DNA of 10,570 bases, taken from Cyclostephanos tholiformis. Taxonomy: Eukaryota; Bacillariophyta; Thalassiosirophyceae; Thalassiosirales; Thalassiosiraceae. Location of the stretch: NCBI GenBank assembly GCA_036939975.1, contig JALLPB010001242.1, positions 1 to 10,570 on the forward strand, read 5' to 3'. A program made the position numbers and the translations under genes. Under the pieces are notes generated by a model, which saw only the letters and a list, made by a program, of their open reading frames with translations, made no database searches and was not told the DNA's origin. Below are positions 2,162 to 10,570 of the stretch, piece after piece (within the stretch, counting starts at the first letter, position 1; each line of letters begins with the position of its first letter).

Positions 2162-4639
2162 TCACGGGTGTAAGGCGTCCTGCGCACTGTTCGACGTTCG
2201 TGATGCTTCGAAGCAAAGGACATCAGTGAGGGCTTTATCATGGTATGCCACGTGAGCGCCTCGATCAATGTGGATCGAATATGTGGGAACGTCAAAAGAT
2301 GGTAGGGGGTTGTGAAACATCAATTTATGCTGGCAGAGGATGTCCCAATCAGATTGGCAAATACGGTCGCGGGTTTTGCATCCGCGGATGGTTGCAAATT
2401 CAAAGGAACCGTGAATGAATGTGTCAGTGTGTGTTGTATTCAGCCACTTCCAAAAAGGGAGGAGATTGTGTCGTATGGCATAATTGTCCGATGTGTCAGA
2501 AGGGCGGACGAGGTGTGTGTCGGTACTTAAAGACGGATGCAGGATATCCTCGCGACCGTGGAATTGGAGCCAGTAACGTTGATTGACGGCATTGTACCGC
2601 CAATCGGCGGGGTGGCAGGTGTAAAACTCAAACAGAAAGCGTCCGTCCAGCGTGCACAAGGGGTATAATGAAATGGAGTCCTCGAAAGCAACCCGAATGA
2701 GATGCCACTCTCGTGCATCATTGGCGCCAATATTATGAGAGACGAAAAACAGATGATCGTCGCTCCTGATAATGGCCGCCATGAGCAGGTGAATTGCGGG
2801 AATGGAGGGACTTGAATGAGCTGGTGCCGCCGGCGGTGGTCCTGTAGTCAACACAGTATGTCGTGAAGCCGAGTCCCCTGATAGGTAGCGTCCATATTCA
2901 GCGTCGTCGGCCCAGGGAAAGGGTGCAATGTCATCATTGAGTTCAGACAAGCTGGGCCAATGAAATGCCGCGCACCAATCAGTTTGGGCAAGGATAGATT
3001 TGGCGACTTTGAATGGTTGAATAGGGTTGAACTCATGTATGCCTGCTTCTTTAAAGGGGTGTGCGGAGATCGGCTTGTATAACTGGCCGTATCGAGTGTC
3101 CGCACCATCGACAGGTTGGAATGGGATCAATTCCGTGGGGTATGGGGACAAATCCGAAGCGTGTTTTCTCTCCTTTTTTGAAGGTTTATCACAGTGCTCG
3201 AGCTCGTACGATGCGCCGAGAAGGATGCCAATAACGCGCCGAGGGCCCGTGAAAGAGTATTGCAATTTGTCGATCGTTCCTCTGGCAGCGTCGGATTTCA
3301 TGGCACGTCGTGCGAAGACGACGTCGCCGATGGAGTACACGCGTGGGTCAGAACGGCGTGCGTTGATGAGTTCGCGATGATAAGAACGTTGTTCGCGAAC
3401 AAGAAGATCAACAACTTGACGACATGCAGAAAGGCGGGTGGCGAGTTCTCGGGAGTATGAGACGACAGAGCTCGGTGATGAAGTTAATTCCCAGTGTTTG
3501 CCGCTGGAGTAATCGATTGGAAAGGCGAACTCTCGGCCCACAGCAACAAGGCTGCGAGAGATATCTGTTCCTGGCACTGGGCATGAGTTCCATGCGTACA
3601 GGAGTAGTAGGATTGCTTCCAGCGCGACACGGACAGAATCACTTTCGTTGCACATGATTTTGAGGCCCTTTGTGAGGTAACGATTGACGCGTTCGACGAT
3701 CATTGGGTTGTGATTGGCGCTGGAGAGGACATGGCAGTTAATTTTTAGCAAGTCGATCGCTTTGCGACAGACGCCGAAGAACTTGCTGTCTTTATCCAAT
3801 ACAATGGTGTGACAGAACCCATAGCGAAGGAGTATTCTCATGATGGCTGACGCAAAGGTGGTGGCGGACGCATGCGTGATTGGCTCCATGCAGGCAAAGC
3901 TACACATTCCGCAACAGCCAATCAAATAGCATGCCGAACCTTCAAAGCCGGCATGCTTGCTGGCCGAGTATGCGTCAAAGAACATGACGAGAAATGGTGC
4001 CTCGATAGGGAAGTTGTAGACGAGCTCGGATGATTTACCACGAGTGGGGTTGGCCAAAGCGCAACCAGGACAGGCGTGACACATACGTTTAACATAGGAG
4101 TACATCCCAGGCCAATAGAAATGCAGTTGTAGCCGATGAAAGGTTCTGTATGCATTGAGATGACCACCAATTAGGTTGGTGTGGAAGGCGATGAATACGA
4201 TGTTCCTGAGCTCCGAAGGTACCAATTGCAGGCGTGTAAACGATGAGGTACCAATGATTGGTTCGTGAAGAATGAGCATGTCGTTCTCGATGACTATGAG
4301 AGATTGACGCAGTGGGCCCCTATAATTGTGATTGACGTTGGCTAAAGCTTTGTTCGAGATTTTGGATGGGTGCAGCGCGATGTCCCGCACAGCACACAGT
4401 TCGGTATCGTTGTTGTTAGCCTGGACCCAGCGCTCCTTTGAGGGAACGCGGGTGCAGATGGCGCCATTGACGAACGTTTGAATTGTGGCTGCGGGTGCAG
4501 CGAACTGATTGGGCAAAAATACTTCGCTGTTCGAATCACGCAGGTACAAAAGGTGGGAATGAACCTGCTCAAATAGCCATGATGAGGTTCGTCCAGGCAT
4601 CGCTGCGTCGAGTCCGAATTTGTACCATTCATGCGACAT
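2162..4639 (-). CDS. Pol C-terminal half: integrase with GPY/F-like module and unassigned tail
   Basis: Integrase inserts the cDNA copy into host DNA. Numbering from the ATG at 4639, residues 1-30 finish the methyltransferase-like domain described separately. A zinc-binding HHCC-type module follows: H153, H160 and C187/C190/C193 around the motif YWPGM. The catalytic core shows D222 (FFDAY), D282 (LDKDSKFF) and E316 (IVERVN), giving a DDE triad with 33 residues between the last two. Residues 436-500 contain GDVVFARR, FTGPRRVI, GASYELEH and HASDLSPY, which match the GPY/F module of Ty3/gypsy integrases. About 325 further residues (501-825) have no family I recognise. The ATG at 4639 is only the first in the open frame, which continues upstream to about 4822. 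The true polyprotein would read in from RNase H, and the link is broken by a frameshift near 4800. The whole integrase part is otherwise uninterrupted. Confidence 0.9.
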   Translation of the reverse strand: MSHEWYKFGLDAAMPGRTSSWLFEQVHSHLLYLRDSNSEVFLPNQFAAPAATIQTFVNGAICTRVPSKERWVQANNNDTELCAVRDIALHPSKISNKALANVNHNYRGPLRQSLIVIENDMLILHEPIIGTSSFTRLQLVPSELRNIVFIAFHTNLIGGHLNAYRTFHRLQLHFYWPGMYSYVKRMCHACPGCALANPTRGKSSELVYNFPIEAPFLVMFFDAYSASKHAGFEGSACYLIGCCGMCSFACMEPITHASATTFASAIMRILLRYGFCHTIVLDKDSKFFGVCRKAIDLLKINCHVLSSANHNPMIVERVNRYLTKGLKIMCNESDSVRVALEAILLLLYAWNSCPVPGTDISRSLVAVGREFAFPIDYSSGKHWELTSSPSSVVSYSRELATRLSACRQVVDLLVREQRSYHRELINARRSDPRVYSIGDVVFARRAMKSDAARGTIDKLQYSFTGPRRVIGILLGASYELEHCDKPSKKERKHASDLSPYPTELIPFQPVDGADTRYGQLYKPISAHPFKEAGIHEFNPIQPFKVAKSILAQTDWCAAFHWPSLSELNDDIAPFPWADDAEYGRYLSGDSASRHTVLTTGPPPAAPAHSSPSIPAIHLLMAAIIRSDDHLFFVSHNIGANDAREWHLIRVAFEDSISLYPLCTLDGRFLFEFYTCHPADWRYNAVNQRYWLQFHGREDILHPSLSTDTHLVRPSDTSDNYAIRHNLLPFWKWLNTTHTDTFIHGSFEFATIRGCKTRDRICQSDWDILCQHKLMFHNPLPSFDVPTYSIHIDRGAHVAYHDKALTDVLCFEASRTSNSAQDALHP

Positions 4640-5772
4640 CCTGTATTGAATATTGTCCGATAAGCTAAAGCATCTGGCGAATTCGTAGGTTGAAATAGCG
4701 TGTACATATGTATGATCATCGTGATGGAATTCGATGCCGAAATAGTGCTGAAAGATGTTACGATTGGGGCAGGATTCAAAGGGTGGACAAACGCTATCCC
4801 CGAGATTACTGCCGAGCCGGCTAAAATTGATACGTCCTGGCCGTCACAATGTAAAAAGTATTTGATGGAGACCAGTGGCAACGGAGATCGATTTGCGCTC
4901 GTTGGGGCGCTCGCCACCATCCTGCAGCTGTCGTCGGAGTTGAACTGAGGATTGTCCTTGCCATGACCAAGCGCGTGCTCCGGACGATCAAACAGCGCCC
5001 ATATGAAGTGCCCAACGGGACGCGGTGCAAGCAGCGGTGGCGATTGGAGGATCAGTGGGTTGACATTGGCGGCGCATGATGAATGAACGGCAGTGATGAG
5101 CAGGTAGGAGTCAGCGATGGAGTCCCCGATGTCGAGATAGGAGACCTCCCGTGAAGATATCTTCCAGTTAGCGGCAGTTAACCTTTTAGTGAATGATTTG
5201 ATGGCTTGTTTATCGTGGTCAGGGATGACTATCGCAATGACGATGGACAACGACCGGATAAGGCGTAGCTGCGCGATGATCGATAGTTGGAGCTTCCAAA
5301 AAGCAGAAGTGACGTCGCTCGTTTGGAAGCGATAAGAGTTGATGAGATAGCCGCTGATGACAGATTGCTCCCCAGAAGCGCGGATGTGATTGAGAAGGTC
5401 GTTTCCTGAGTTGAAGACTCATGCTAAAGGCGCGAACTCATGGAACAAGGAATGTCCAGCCTCAGTTGTGTCACAAGCAAGGCTGATAGTAAAGGGCAGA
5501 CTGCGGGAGTCGATCAACGACAAGAAGTGACCGTTAGAAAATGAGAATACTGCCCAGTCAAAAGTCAGAGCCTGGCGAGCATACTGAGCCAATTCCGAGT
5601 TGAGGAGAGAGCGTGATGGTTAAGTTGCAAGGACGGTGGCTGCCTCTGTAAACCGAACTGGGATGTTCGAGAGATGGCTGTGACCCCAGCCGGTAGAAGT
5701 TGTGATATCCGTCAGAAGGCTCTGGATGTGCAATATCTCGGCGGTCGAACTCTCTGTAGCGGAATTGTTACC
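4560..5772 (-). pseudogene. Pol middle region, C5-methyltransferase-like domain, broken
   Basis: This segment sits between RNase H and integrase, where most Ty3/gypsy elements have only a short linker. Reading leftward in the frame of the RT segment, it has a TAA at 5620-5622 and a TGA at 5419-5421. It then changes frame near 4800 to join the integrase frame. From about 5550 to 4560 (roughly 330 residues) the order of motifs parallels C5-cytosine methyltransferases. FSFSNG stands near motif I, SGYLINS where motif IV has its Pro-Cys, and IVIPDH where motif VI has Glu-Asn-Val. IGDSIADSYLLI aligns with motif VIII, YEFARCFSL with motif IX and GLDAAMPGR with motif X. The catalytic Cys, the ENV Glu and the QxRxR residues are absent, so no methyl transfer is expected. 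The assignment rests on motif order and length only; a different Rossmann-like fold is possible. Confidence 0.5.
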
Positions 5773-6391
5773 GGTTGGAAACGTGGCCCACGGTAATATG
5801 GCATATTCTCCAGTCGCATAGGAAGGTCAGTGGGGGCGGGGTGCGATTGCTGAAGTCGGCGTGTGGATTCGAGGTACTCCTTGAATAGGGGGTCGAATTC
5901 CATATCAACGCCAAGACGAGCTCCGAGTCCGGGCAATGCACGATATCGACATCCCAACACATGAGGCGCATCTGCAGACGTAAAATAGCAGGGTTGCCGC
6001 CTTCGTATGAGAGGATAAATTTGATAGCATAGCAATCCGTGACCCATACAAAGCGCTGCCCAAAGACATAGGAGCGACACTTGTTGATGGCGTAATCGCC
6101 AGAGAATCCTTCGCCTAAGTGGGAGTGGAGGCAAATCTCGTTTCCTCGCGTGCGTCGGGCACCGAAGCAGACGGGACGCAAAATCGCCTTGGAATCTTTG
6201 GTCATGAAGGTAAATCCCCTTCCCTCGAGATAGTCCCACACAGCGCCAATCGATACCGCATCATTCGCTGGCTGCAGTAGGACGTATCCGAAACCTTTGC
6301 TGGAAAAGTCAGTGCGCAACACGATAAGCTTGCGGTGGTCAAAACGTTGGATGCAGGGGTCGGCAGGATAGCTCCTTTTAGATGCTCCCAA
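5768..6391 (-). pseudogene. Pol RNase H segment, frameshifted at both ends
   Basis: RNase H removes the RNA strand from the RNA-DNA hybrid during copying. In the frame opening at 6391, acidic residues of the RNase H fold are visible: D28 (LRTDFSSKG), E94 (HLGEGFSGD) and D119 (VTDCYAIK). The sequence continues to VHCPDSEL at about 5921. The next expected piece, the ADxxSR-like stretch carrying the last aspartate, is missing. The family-like sequence resumes one frame over at 5918 (RLGVDMEFDPLF) and runs through PPTDLP-like and MPYYRG-like motifs to about 5774. This points to an out-of-frame deletion at about 5920. The 5' junction is a one-base-type frame change at about 6364, where the RT frame ends its homology. 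The first few residues from 6391 and the residues after 5921 in this frame are not genuine protein. Confidence 0.8.
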
Positions 6392-7821
6392 GCCGCCTCA
6401 GCGTCAGGAGTCCAATATGGCCCAAGCTCCTCAGTGTACTCCTGTTTAGTAACCGTGCGCAAAGCCTCAACTCGAATTTCGAAGTTGGGGATGAAGCGCA
6501 AGTAAAACTGCACAAATCCAAGAAACTTAGCCACGTCACGGACCAGCGTGGGGGCCGGCCAAGACTGGAGTAGCTGATGTTTGGATTTGGCCGGACGATT
6601 GCCCTCGGTACATACGTCAATTCCAACAAATTTGAATCGTTTGGGGAAGAAGTGGCTCTTTTCAAGGTTAAGCGAGAGACGATAGGCGCGGCAGACGGTG
6701 AGCTGGCAACGCATGTAAAGCAGGGCGTGCTGGAATGCCATTGCCCAGCTTACGATGTCGTCAACGATGATGCGCGTATTAGTATCGTCGTCGATGGTGA
6801 TGCCATGCGATTTACTTAACTCGTTCCATATGCTGTCAATGTCGTGAATGAAATTGATAAACGTGGCTGGTCCATTGGTAGGGCCAAAGGGCATGACTGT
6901 GTATGTCCATTTGATGGCGTCGACCCCTTGGAATGCCAGCTTTTCTTGACTTTCGGGCGCGACGGCAAGTTGATGATAGCCCATCGGCGCGTCGAACATC
7001 CACCACCATAGCGCACGGCCAAATTCGTTGAACACCGCGGAATCGCAGCAAGGAATCGGGTATGCAATTGTCCGAGTGACGCCATTAAGTGGGATGTAGT
7101 TGACGCAGAAGCGCCACACGAAGTTTTCGATATTGCGAACGTGCTCCTGATGGGGTTTCGCGGCCAGCAGTGCTTTGAACAGCCAGCGTCCATCCGTGAT
7201 TTGCCGGATGTGACCAACCTTGGCTAAGGCCGAGATGCATCGTCGCATAATGACGGTCTCTCGTTTGCCATACAAGATTTTCTTGACTGCGATGGGGCGG
7301 GCAGTACCGGTGTCGATGACGCATTCATAATTCTTCACCGTTACAAAGATGCCCCTCGCGTCGAACACAGGCCAAAATTCACGAATGAGATCGTACACTT
7401 GATGTTGTTGGTCACTCGTCAGATGGGAGAAATCCACCTTCTGATGCATAATCGCCTTGTGCTCCTCGGGGACGAAGGGGTAGTTGAAGCTGGGGTTGAC
7501 GGGACCATTGAGGTCCGGCATCGGATGGCATAGCTTCCATAGAATGGGTCCCCCGTCAATACTGTGGAGCAAGTGATCGTAGTCATCGGATTGATCGGGG
7601 AAGCCCCGATCATCCAAGAAGACGTTGTCTGATTTCCGTCGTCGTTTTGGCTTGGGCACGACGCGAATCGGGTCTCCCTCAGATGGTGGTGACGCGGCAG
7701 CTGCAAAGCTAGAAGCTTTGAGGCATGGTTTCCTGTGAGAGGGAAGAATACGAGGCTTGGTTAAACAGTGTCGAAATGGTTTGTTGAGGGGACTGTCGAT
7801 CCGATAGGGCAAACAAAGCAT
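6202..7821 (-). CDS. Pol N-terminal part: reverse transcriptase (3' end out of frame)
   Basis: Reverse transcriptase copies the element's RNA into DNA within the particle. Numbering from the ATG at 7821, the palm holds D277 in MFDAPMGYHQ, the PFGPTNGPATF motif at 311-321 and the catalytic pair D354-D355 in IIVDD. These are followed by LNLEKSHFF (primer-grip side) and the thumb/connection motifs FVGIDV and FLGFVQFYLRFIPNF. IVDD replaces the commoner YVDD/YIDD. About 30 residues rich in Asp and Ser intervene between the PFG motif and IVDD, longer than in classical gypsy RT. Homology ends at residue 486 (about 6364); the remaining 53 codons to 6202 are out of frame, and the true sequence continues in the next frame as RNase H. 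The ATG has A at -3 and lies 34 bases after the Gag stop. Confidence 0.92.
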   Translation of the reverse strand: MLCLPYRIDSPLNKPFRHCLTKPRILPSHRKPCLKASSFAAAASPPSEGDPIRVVPKPKRRRKSDNVFLDDRGFPDQSDDYDHLLHSIDGGPILWKLCHPMPDLNGPVNPSFNYPFVPEEHKAIMHQKVDFSHLTSDQQHQVYDLIREFWPVFDARGIFVTVKNYECVIDTGTARPIAVKKILYGKRETVIMRRCISALAKVGHIRQITDGRWLFKALLAAKPHQEHVRNIENFVWRFCVNYIPLNGVTRTIAYPIPCCDSAVFNEFGRALWWWMFDAPMGYHQLAVAPESQEKLAFQGVDAIKWTYTVMPFGPTNGPATFINFIHDIDSIWNELSKSHGITIDDDTNTRIIVDDIVSWAMAFQHALLYMRCQLTVCRAYRLSLNLEKSHFFPKRFKFVGIDVCTEGNRPAKSKHQLLQSWPAPTLVRDVAKFLGFVQFYLRFIPNFEIRVEALRTVTKQEYTEELGPYWTPDAEAAWEHLKGAILPTPASNVLTTASLSCCALTFPAKVSDTSYCSQRMMRYRLALCGTISREGDLPS

Positions 7822-7855
7822 GATTTCGACGAGGACCCCGGATAATGATTACGAA
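7822..7855 (-). other. Gag-Pol junction, frames do not overlap
   Basis: Gag stops with TAA at 7856-7858. The pol frame has its own TAA at 7849-7851, so it is closed upstream and does not overlap Gag. A simple programmed frameshift between these two frames is therefore impossible as the sequence stands. The third frame is open across the junction down to a stop at 7761-7763. Either pol re-initiates at the ATG at 7821, or this copy has lost an ancestral connection. Confidence 0.6.
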
Positions 7856-10273
7856 TTATAGAAAACGAATTGCAGTGCCTACCGGCATGATGTGCAGTCG
7901 TTTAGATAGGGCCTGCACCTTGGCCTCATAGTAGCGCTCTAGATGCGCGATTTCATTGATGATCATCTTGGTCGACTTGGCAATTTGGACGGTAGCACTC
8001 GGGTCGTCCGCGACAGGAACATGATTCGACGTTCGTCGGAAATCAATCGGGAAGGGTGGACAGTCGAGATACTTGCATTCGGCCAGATTGTCGACGAGGT
8101 CCAATATCATTCCTGTCCCCTGCATAAATGGCAGACCCAAAATGGTGTTGACAGAGACGTGAGGACCCGTGGCGATCAAGAGTGATGCTTCCTCCCCATC
8201 AGATGTCTTGTAGGGGAGGTGAAACTGAAATCCCACCTCTAACTCAGTGGTGACAGCTTCATCCTGATGGGACTGGACAACGCCTGACAAGACGATAGGT
8301 GCGTAGTCCTGGGGGGCAAAGACCTTTGCGACGCAATGCGGAAAGCGTTTCGCCAGAGACGCAAAGTAGTGAAAGTTCCCCATAGATAGAGCGGCGCACG
8401 AATCGACAGTGCAACGGATAGATGGGCTGTTAGGGCAGTTGAGAGTAGGTCCAAATTGCATGACAATATGAGGCAGGTTACTGTGGATGGCGATCGGCAT
8501 CATTTGCTTGAGGGTAGGTCCAGCGGCCAACACGGGGACGTCAATAATGAAGATGCGGCCGCCACCACGGCCAGCGGGCGACCCACGGCCAGCACCGCTA
8601 CCTCGGCCTCCCCCAGACCCGGGTGCGATAGCACTAGGTGTGGTAACGGAGGAGGCTATGCTTGTGGCATCGCTGACTTCGTGTCCAAATCCTTTTAAGC
8701 TGAGGAGGACCTGCTCCCTGATGCAATCTTGACCCGCTGAATCAAAATCGGCGAAGTTGGCAGTGCCGAGATTTTTTTGCTTGGTGTTCTGCCGATGACG
8801 CTTTTGACGATTTGCCTTCATCCTATTGATGTTCCTCCTTGCATTCTCACATACGCCTGGGCTATCCCTGTTTGGGCAGATTACAACATGCTCCCCGTTT
8901 TTAAACTCGGTCCAAGCGTGGGGGCGACCGCAGCCATGACACGCAAACAAACGTCGTCCCCGTCCATTACCCGTGGGGGTATTGGCAGAGCAACCGGTGG
9001 ACTGACCACCGCCAGGGGCATACCGTTGCATTGTCAGCTCGGCCTGACTTGGGTACGTGCCAACGATGGGGTTTCCCTTCCCTCCGCCGGAGGGCGAGGT
9101 GGCATGGAAGGCTTGAGAAAGGCCAACGGCCTCACGTGACACCCTTGTTATCATCAGGAAGTCATCCTCTGCAATCTGTGCGGCCTGCAGCATCTCCTGT
9201 AGCACCTTTCGCTGGTGCGCCACTTGGAGAGGTTGGACGACGCTATGATTAGGGTAGTTGCGGCAAAAGCCGGTTAGAAGGCAAGGGTCGAGGCCATCAA
9301 TAAAGCGAGCACAGACGCTAACTGGATACTCCCGTTGGCTAGAAAAGGGACGACTCGCGCTCATGAGCTGTTGATGATAGGCTTGGACGGAGCTGGAAAT
9401 CGGATTGCCATCACGGTCGGTATGCACCTGGCGAATATGGTCTAGCGCAGCGTGCGGCTGTGTGCTGTAGCCGGGGCATAGCTTGGTGAACATCGTCTGG
9501 CATATAGAAGCGGACGCGAGACAAAGAATCTTCTCCTGAATTTCCATTTTGATGGCAAAAGAGTCCGTCCTGGCGCCAGTGGCACCGAAGCTAGCGGCCT
9601 GGAGCTCGACGGGTCCATCCTGTAGGGTGAGATCCAATATTTGGGCCTGAACCTCTCGTGAGCTAAGCGTGCGCAGGTCCGATGTGCCGTGAAATGTTGT
9701 GAGGTTATAAGCGGCGCCAGTACCGTTCGTCATCTGGACCGTCGTCTGCGGAAGCTCAATAAAATACTCTATGCGTAGAATCGTGGGCCCGGGATCATCA
9801 AGGATGTTGAGGTCGATGAAGTTGACGGTGGATTGGATGCGGACGAATTTAACATTTTTGCAACATTCGTCAAGCCGGCCATTTTGAACTGGCAGAAGGA
9901 TTGATGAGTCGGCCGCGGTCGTCGTGTTGTTGACCTCATCCCCTTGGGTGTTGTGGAAGCTCAGAATTTGTAGCAGGGTGAAATCACACCATCGGTCATA
10001 AAAGTGCCGGAGCCAATCGTTGATTACGCCGTCGACTGTGGCGCTCAGGTTAAGCTGGTGCCCGAGGGCATCAAGTTGAGCGCGGAGGTCGATATTTTGC
10101 GAAGAGAGGGCGGTTTTATTGATGTGGAATGCATGGGCGTGCTCGTGAGTGGCCATAGACTGATCGATGACGGGGTATAGGTTGACCGTGCCTTGACCAA
10201 TGTTGACGGGCATGAGAGCGCACGGCGCGAAGGGCCCGCTCGATGAAGCGGGTTGAGGCATACTGTCGGTCAT
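7856..10273 (-). CDS. Gag with C-terminal aspartic protease domain
   Basis: Gag forms the particle and packages the RNA; the protease cleaves the polyprotein. The frame is open upstream of 10330 with a TTG there, but the first ATG is at 10273 in the context CACCATGA (A at -3), so I start there (805 residues). The first 400 residues are the presumed capsid part, with no motif I can name. Next comes a variant zinc-binding motif, C445-x2-C448-x3-H452-x13-C466, in CHGCGRPHAW. This is followed by a basic stretch (RRNINRMKANRQKRHRQ) and a Gly-Arg-rich patch at about 552-572, both fitting nucleic-acid binding. A retropepsin-like region follows: D624 in TVDSCAAL (flap side LSGVV) and the hydrophobic ILGLPF at 711-716. 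The protease has DSC where DTG or DSG is usual. Unlike pol, the frame is unbroken. The stop is 34 bases before the pol ATG. Confidence 0.85.
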   Translation of the reverse strand: MTDSMPQPASSSGPFAPCALMPVNIGQGTVNLYPVIDQSMATHEHAHAFHINKTALSSQNIDLRAQLDALGHQLNLSATVDGVINDWLRHFYDRWCDFTLLQILSFHNTQGDEVNNTTTAADSSILLPVQNGRLDECCKNVKFVRIQSTVNFIDLNILDDPGPTILRIEYFIELPQTTVQMTNGTGAAYNLTTFHGTSDLRTLSSREVQAQILDLTLQDGPVELQAASFGATGARTDSFAIKMEIQEKILCLASASICQTMFTKLCPGYSTQPHAALDHIRQVHTDRDGNPISSSVQAYHQQLMSASRPFSSQREYPVSVCARFIDGLDPCLLTGFCRNYPNHSVVQPLQVAHQRKVLQEMLQAAQIAEDDFLMITRVSREAVGLSQAFHATSPSGGGKGNPIVGTYPSQAELTMQRYAPGGGQSTGCSANTPTGNGRGRRLFACHGCGRPHAWTEFKNGEHVVICPNRDSPGVCENARRNINRMKANRQKRHRQNTKQKNLGTANFADFDSAGQDCIREQVLLSLKGFGHEVSDATSIASSVTTPSAIAPGSGGGRGSGAGRGSPAGRGGGRIFIIDVPVLAAGPTLKQMMPIAIHSNLPHIVMQFGPTLNCPNSPSIRCTVDSCAALSMGNFHYFASLAKRFPHCVAKVFAPQDYAPIVLSGVVQSHQDEAVTTELEVGFQFHLPYKTSDGEEASLLIATGPHVSVNTILGLPFMQGTGMILDLVDNLAECKYLDCPPFPIDFRRTSNHVPVADDPSATVQIAKSTKMIINEIAHLERYYEAKVQALSKRLHIMPVGTAIRFL

Positions 10274-10457
10274 GGTGAATCGCTTGATGATGGGCTGATT
10301 TTTGGACGTCCGAGATGGCCGTTCACTCAATTTTCGAGCGGCGAAGACGGGACGCGCTACACAATAATCAGCCGGATGAATATAGTTGAATAGAGACGAA
10401 TTTTTAGCCCCCCCGGCGTGATAGGATCATGGTAAGCCGGCGGAAGGTGAATTCAAA
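10274..10457 (-). other. 5' untranslated leader of the retrotransposon
   Basis: This stretch lies between the primer binding site and the Gag ATG. It holds a run of seven C at 10408-10414 (G in the transcript). The Gag frame stays open through much of it, back to a TGA near 10453, without an ATG. A packaging signal would be expected here in this class, but none can be identified by eye. Confidence 0.55.
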
Positions 10458-10474
10458 CAGTTGATGGAGCACCA
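10458..10474 (-). promoter_or_regulatory. Candidate tRNA primer binding site
   Basis: Directly inside the LTR edge the minus strand reads TGGTGCTCCATCAACTG. A primer binding site starts with TGG, the complement of the tRNA CCA end, and lies at or just inside the LTR, which is met here. The matching tRNA would end in GATGGAGCACCA. I cannot name that tRNA; it does not match the common initiator-Met site. Confidence 0.6.
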
Positions 10475-10570
10475 CTTAAGAGATGTCAAGCGAAGATTGT
10501 GTGCCTAGTTTTAGTATCTGTCGCAGCTAATATCGAATCTGCCTTAGCTTCGATATTAGATGCCTAGAAT
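10474..10570 (-). repeat. 5' LTR, U5-side end only
   Basis: The first 39 bases match 1802-1840 with two transitions. The LTR continues past the window edge, so its promoter and outer terminus cannot be seen. After 10512 the sequence differs from the 3' copy, apart from scattered short matches. Confidence 0.7.
10527..10559. repeat. Inverted repeat in the 5' LTR, 11-bp arms
   Basis: CTAATATCGAA (10527-10537) and TTCGATATTAG (10549-10559) are perfect reverse complements around an 11-base loop. The 3' LTR copy has a different but similarly placed hairpin (1831-1872). Confidence 0.7.

Follow-up and report, generated by a model that had tools for sequence, protein, structure and literature searches.

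A predicted catalytically inactive C5-cytosine methyltransferase domain between RNase H and integrase in a gypsy-type element of the diatom Cyclostephanos tholiformis

The window analysed in this work was a 10,570-base stretch of Cyclostephanos tholiformis DNA (contig C1207). Silicon transporter matches (best E 4e-206) and 17 light-harvesting matches were obtained in the genome, which point to a diatom host. A gypsy-type element was located on its minus strand, with a gag-like frame, a reverse transcriptase (RT), RNase H and an integrase zinc domain. The order of RT, RNase H and integrase domains found with Pfam, in the window element and in the pols of its relatives, was that of Ty3/gypsy elements. 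On the minus strand, an extra pol segment followed the RNase H frame (5771-6397) and preceded the integrase zinc domain (~4046-4222), as claimed in the first-pass annotation of this DNA. The annotation had placed the segment at 4560..5550 and given it ~330 residues. The location was correct, and the length was revised to ~366 aa because the domain was slightly longer (4520-5613). The segment resembled a methyltransferase (MTase), and the motif names and M.HhaI residue labels used below are the customary ones. Its features are as follows.

4520..5613, minus strand: MTase-like domain, ~366 aa, C5-MTase fold predicted from relatives, inactive as judged from residues, in three open pieces (C1207 matches at 4771-5613 and 4520-4816)
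5524..5556, minus strand: motif I position, WAVFSFSNGHF (YGFNSGHF in the family), from the family alignment
5434..5481, minus strand: motif II position, LACDTTEAGHSLFHEF, from the family alignment
5419..5421, minus strand: in-frame stop codon, a sign of decay, from the reading frames
5326..5352, minus strand: motif IV position, GYLINSYRF, without Pro-Cys, from the family alignment
5212..5241, minus strand: motif VI position, VIAIVIPDHD, without Glu-Asn-Val, from the family alignment
5083..5139, minus strand: motif VIII position, YLDIGDSIADSYLLITAVH, Gly retained and QxRxR replaced, from the profile and family alignment
4771..4816, minus strand: stretch containing a reading-frame change (decay), from the overlap of two domain matches
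4727..4789, minus strand: conserved block CPPF..CPN.NIFQ..FGIEF between motifs VIII and IX, corresponding to the target recognition region, from the family alignment
4655..4705, minus strand: motif IX position, VHAISTYEFARCFSLSD, from the profile and family alignment
4562..4612, minus strand: motif X position, LDAAMPGRTSSWLFEQV, from the profile and family alignment

The blocks YEFARCFSL and GLDAAMPGR...LFEQV, which had been singled out in the annotation, were present within 4562-4705, and the I-, IV-, VI- and VIII-like blocks were found at the positions above, together with a II-like block. The blocks had been read as one segment. They were recovered, but their continuity was not, because the window copy was broken by the stop codon and the frame change; the earlier reading crossed frames since the segment was spread over three open pieces. 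The segment was not a product of chance, because it was carried by four uninterrupted copies in the same genome and by 30 database proteins (weakest E 4.1e-56). The own-genome comparison covered 24.95 Mb, and the same arrangement was found in uninterrupted frames of 1867, 1891, 1909 and 1881 codons on C1549, C1342, C28 and C784, respectively.

The predicted fold of relatives was that of the whole catalytic chain of a C5-cytosine methyltransferase. The C5-MTase was the top fold match and spanned motifs I-X, which was a check set beforehand. Moreover, a profile of 11 C5-MTases (the host enzyme L017, M.HhaI 17-307 and nine phage enzymes), which was built independently of structure, aligned colinearly with the family (score 35.0, P 0.0011). 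The match-column score was 28.6, whereas the best of 200 column shuffles was 23.7 (0/200 reached the observed value) and the reversed profile gave 14.0. The P value dropped to 0.00031 when the profile was compared with 48 elements. Several results weighed against this identity. The hhalign probabilities against C5-MTases were modest (20.6 and 39.5%), and the comparison of the distant group of relatives alone with C5-MTases was weak (P 0.055). No Pfam methyltransferase, including PF00145, was detected in any of 24 members or of four pols, and the PDB sequence profile search gave no MTase. The only matches of the family profile to PDB sequences, a desaturase and a hexokinase, were at chance level (E 1 or worse). 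Hence, the identity of the domain rests mainly on the predicted fold, because Pfam, PDB-profile and hhalign support was absent or modest.

The residues at the motif positions were counted in 71 rows, namely, four own-genome copies, 62 database proteins (P0058 split over three rows) and the three window pieces. The counts per column used covering rows only, with P0057, P0063, P0067 and P0069 covered in part, and motif IV of the distant group was examined solely by a whole-protein pattern search. The Gly of motif I was present in 59/59 rows, although FxGxG was not retained. Asp or Glu occupied the motif II position in 59/60 rows, and the Pro of motif X was found in 62/63. The Arg (62/65) and Glu (64/65) of motif IX were six residues apart, the canonical spacing in the M.HhaI alignment; the Arg reads His in the window copy. 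The replacement of Pro-Cys, Glu-Asn-Val and QxRxR, as described in the annotation, was confirmed across the family rows. Pro-Cys was absent at model positions 86-101 from all of the ~60 rows covering motif IV, so that its loss was shared by every such copy, the second check set beforehand; Glu-Asn at motif VI was absent from every row. QxRxR at motif VIII was not kept, and the family reads GDSVxxSx. The distant pol P0057 reads NAADYGDTIDSNRIMI at this position, which is close to the usual C5-MTase wording. Furthermore, Pro-Cys followed by Glu-Asn-Val/Cys 25-60 residues on was absent from 83 of 84 whole proteins, the exception being P0074. The residue mapping at motif IV and at motif VI carries an uncertainty of a few residues, and three observations spoke against complete loss. 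Column 128, which lies two positions ahead of the one mapped to the motif VI Glu, held Glu in 3/63 rows; column 171, close to where QxRxR has its second Arg, held Arg in 20/62 rows; and Cys occurred at scattered columns near motif IV in four rows. As judged from these residues, a catalytically dead domain, as annotated, is well supported. New residues were near-invariant, namely, His29 (58/59), Arg54 (59/60) and Asp164 (61/62); Asp48 (57/60), Ser165 (51/62) and the less strict His177 (56/62) were also conserved. In the HPDHD block at motif VI, the leading His was replaced by Ile in 9/63 rows, including the window. Among 24 sequences, 31 of 383 columns were invariant, of which 14 were polar or charged.

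The RT and domain distances of the 48 elements were strongly correlated (r 0.912), and none of 2000 permutations reached this value (highest 0.460). A single capture with subsequent co-inheritance would fit this pattern. The pS values of the domain (synonymous differences) among the four own-genome copies were 0.74-0.84, which were saturated, whereas the pN values (nonsynonymous differences) were 0.24-0.39. Hence, purifying selection has acted on the domain. The RT/RNase H and integrase parts were slower (pN 0.12-0.25). With the predicted fold as its main support, it is very probable that this segment represents a C5-cytosine methyltransferase domain which an ancestor of this diatom gypsy group captured into pol, whose catalytic motifs disappeared ahead of the group's diversification and which selection has maintained since. 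The capture would have been a single event, and the catalytic loss would have been early.

The distribution of the domain was explored in the genome and in protein databases. RT-related copies were found on 15 contigs of the genome, a count that leaves aside two weak RT matches (22-24%) to other elements, and 12 of the 15 had a domain match; C1507, C618 and C940 had none in the domain search of RT-bearing contigs. The database search with RT gave 76 proteins. Beyond the first 30 proteins from the domain search, 54 were obtained (P0031-P0084; P0031 was already known from the domain search with P0030). In hmmsearch, 28 of the 54 carried the domain at E < 1e-10, 15 were more distant pols, of which six matched the domain at E < 1e-3, and 11 were other gypsy pols with no domain match below E 0.1. 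The 15 distant pol segments combined matched the near family in hhalign with a probability of 96.7 (E 4.5e-10, 228 columns); this set comprised 15 of the 16 proteins P0057-P0072, without P0058. Starting from P0030, a divergent member, the domain search returned P0030 itself and one further protein. The named domain-bearing relatives were Cyclotella meneghiniana, Cyclotella cryptica and Skeletonema dohrnii, and Skeletonema is a Thalassiosirales diatom. Alignment A1 contained 24 of the 30 domain-search proteins, with the partial proteins P0024, P0025, P0026 and P0029, and also P0003 and P0015, outside it, and alignment A2 contained 26 of 27 sequences, without P0056. Scans of viral contigs, in which the host DNMT or A1 served as the query, gave no confirmed relatives. 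Among PDB sequences, the host DNMT domain itself (850-2655 of L017, on C425) was nearer to M.HhaI (E 4.7e-27) than to DNMT1, for which the best E value was 4e-10. Direct repeats were observed at 1-1831 and 8171-10000 of L014 (C949) and at 8-1159 and 8853-10000 of L010 (C1342), where they overlapped the 3' end of pol. The two repeat copies within each locus were 88-89% identical, and these repeats suggest head-to-tail tandem elements.

The domain just precedes the integrase zinc domain and its recognition-like part is conserved, which suggests that it serves the integration complex as a binding module. Once pol is processed, the non-catalytic domain may stay attached to integrase, or it may be fused to RNase H. 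Nucleic acid or a protein partner would be held by its old cleft and target-recognition face, and the integration complex would thereby be stabilised or steered. This mechanism as a whole is put forward tentatively, as possible and a little short of an even chance; when identity and mechanism are averaged, the favoured explanation is held with moderate confidence. Charge and divergence weigh against the mechanism. The domain was slightly acidic: across 56 domains the net charge per 100 aa ranged from -3.1 to 2.5, with a median of -1.1, whereas the integrase part was +11 to +16 in all. The 11 C5-MTases had net charges of -1.9 to 2.6, which overlapped the domain range, the domain being a little lower. 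The low net charge speaks mildly against strong unspecific binding to DNA. Moreover, the domain diverged faster, with pairwise identities of 46-63% versus 65-82% for RT and integrase. Both the divergence above RT and integrase and the lack of marked positive charge would also be expected if the fold merely separated RNase H from integrase as a structural spacer. However, a spacer would not require the 31 invariant columns, of which 14 are polar or charged, and this explanation is considered unlikely.

Another explanation is that the domain acts on host silencing. It would bind host methyltransferases, or methylated or hemimethylated element DNA, and thereby blunt or steer silencing, by analogy with DNMT3L, an inactive DNMT paralogue that acts through binding. 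The part between motifs VIII and IX is retained, and a host DNMT with intact motifs exists, namely, L017, in which Pro-Cys, Glu-Asn-Val and an RKR block are present. In passages of PMC9998398, DNMT5a mutants of the diatom Phaeodactylum lose methylation and retrotransposon expression rises. Interference with host methylation is plausible because of this intact host enzyme and the rise in Phaeodactylum retrotransposon expression. However, the domain belongs to pol and has no separate frame, and its fast divergence, which is compatible with an arms race, is unspecific. Such a decoy role has perhaps one chance in several of being right.

It is less likely again that the former S-adenosylmethionine (SAM) site was repurposed, so that the pocket would bind SAM, S-adenosylhomocysteine (SAH) or another ligand, or would perform new chemistry via model positions 29, 48, 54, 164, 165 and 177. 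The conserved His, Asp, Arg and Ser at or near the motif I, II and VIII positions are consistent with this possibility, but the first His of HPDHD is not constant, as noted above. In a further form, which is more doubtful still, integration might be under the control of a ligand, metal or nucleotide bound in the old cofactor pocket, which these residues now line, and the elements could thus sense host methylation or metabolic state. The column-128 Glu and column-171 Arg would favour an active enzyme with unusual motifs. This is nevertheless very improbable, because no row has a motif IV Cys in a Pro-Cys setting, the four nearby Cys being scattered.

Outside the domain, the following features were assigned in the window.

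7856..10330, minus strand: gag-like frame by position, 824 aa, before RT, without a Pfam match; presumably protease-like
6205..7848, minus strand: RT frame (RVT_1, E 2.9e-10)
5771..6397, minus strand: RNase H frame (RT_RNaseH, E 6.6e-10)
4046..4222, minus strand: integrase zinc-binding domain (H2C2), the first recognised domain downstream of the MTase-like one (PF17921, E 2.6e-16)
2264..2794 (approximate), minus strand: conserved C-terminal pol domain, ~177 aa
1802..1847, strand not assigned: 46-nt direct repeat, candidate long terminal repeat (LTR) remnant, 91% identical to 10474-10519
10474..10519, strand not assigned: 46-nt direct repeat, candidate LTR remnant close to the contig end, paired with 1802-1847

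The gag-like and RT frames meet at ~7848-7859 in different reading frames. The terminal repetition in the window consisted of this single 46-nt repeat, with one copy near the contig end. The window copy of the element is decayed.

The diatom domain was compared with known systems. It is like M.HhaI and the C5-cytosine DNA methyltransferases (PF00145) in the whole-chain fold, including the target-recognition part, in the motif order I-X, in the motif II acid and in the motif IX Arg and Glu. Unlike them, the family has ~9% identity, no PF00145 match and no Pro-Cys, Glu-Asn-Val or QxRxR. DNMT3L is enzymatically inactive and acts by binding, like the proposed role of the diatom domain, but it is a host regulator and no mobile element. 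A search by RT similarity for an intact-motif relative gave only P0074, with its DNMT in a different place. P0074 is a 3112-aa gypsy polyprotein (ENA contig, longest 33,321 bases) with an intact-motif C5-MTase at 869-1039. It likewise combines a gypsy pol with a C5-MTase, but the MTase precedes the protease match and has Pro-Cys and Glu-Asn-Val; from this other position, a separate capture is inferred.

Among diatom gypsy elements, GyDi1 and GyDi2 of Thalassiosira pseudonana have the order PR, RT, RH, IN in passages of Maumus (2009; PMC2806351), and the word 'methyltransferase' is absent from that text. The passages of a 2019 opinion article (PMC6338049) describe gypsy and DIRS elements encoding adenine- or cytosine-methylases in groups including stramenopiles; these passages name no diatoms and no domain between RNase H and integrase. 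In a full-text literature search by title and abstract start, which mostly did not extend to subscription journals and preprints, this domain was undescribed among the matches listed. The domain represents a predicted pseudoenzyme family that is invisible to Pfam, and its profile can be used for annotating diatom genomes and plankton metagenomes. It raises the testable question of what role a methyltransferase fold has for a mobile element when methylation is impossible.

The closest published cases are given in passages of de Mendoza (2018; PMC5890265), in a text from which the word 'diatom' is absent. DNMTs were described there in DIRS and LINE elements of Symbiodinium and in a gypsy element of Klebsormidium (KnitGypsy-Dnmt3), and CG is methylated in yeast by the DIRS-Dnmt3 enzyme of Symbiodinium. 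KnitGypsy-Dnmt3, DIRS-Dnmt3 and LINE-Dnmt are, like the diatom domain, retrotransposon-encoded C5-MTases under purifying selection, and KnitGypsy also has its C5-MTase in the gypsy pol frame (PMC5890265). KnitGypsy keeps the key functional residues in these passages, whereas the diatom domain does not, appears inactive and is too diverged for Pfam. The published captures of cytosine methyltransferases by retrotransposons concern dinoflagellates and one charophyte, with enzymes whose residues are kept (PMC5890265), whereas the diatom family suggests an old capture, inactivated yet retained across the whole element group and adjoining integrase.
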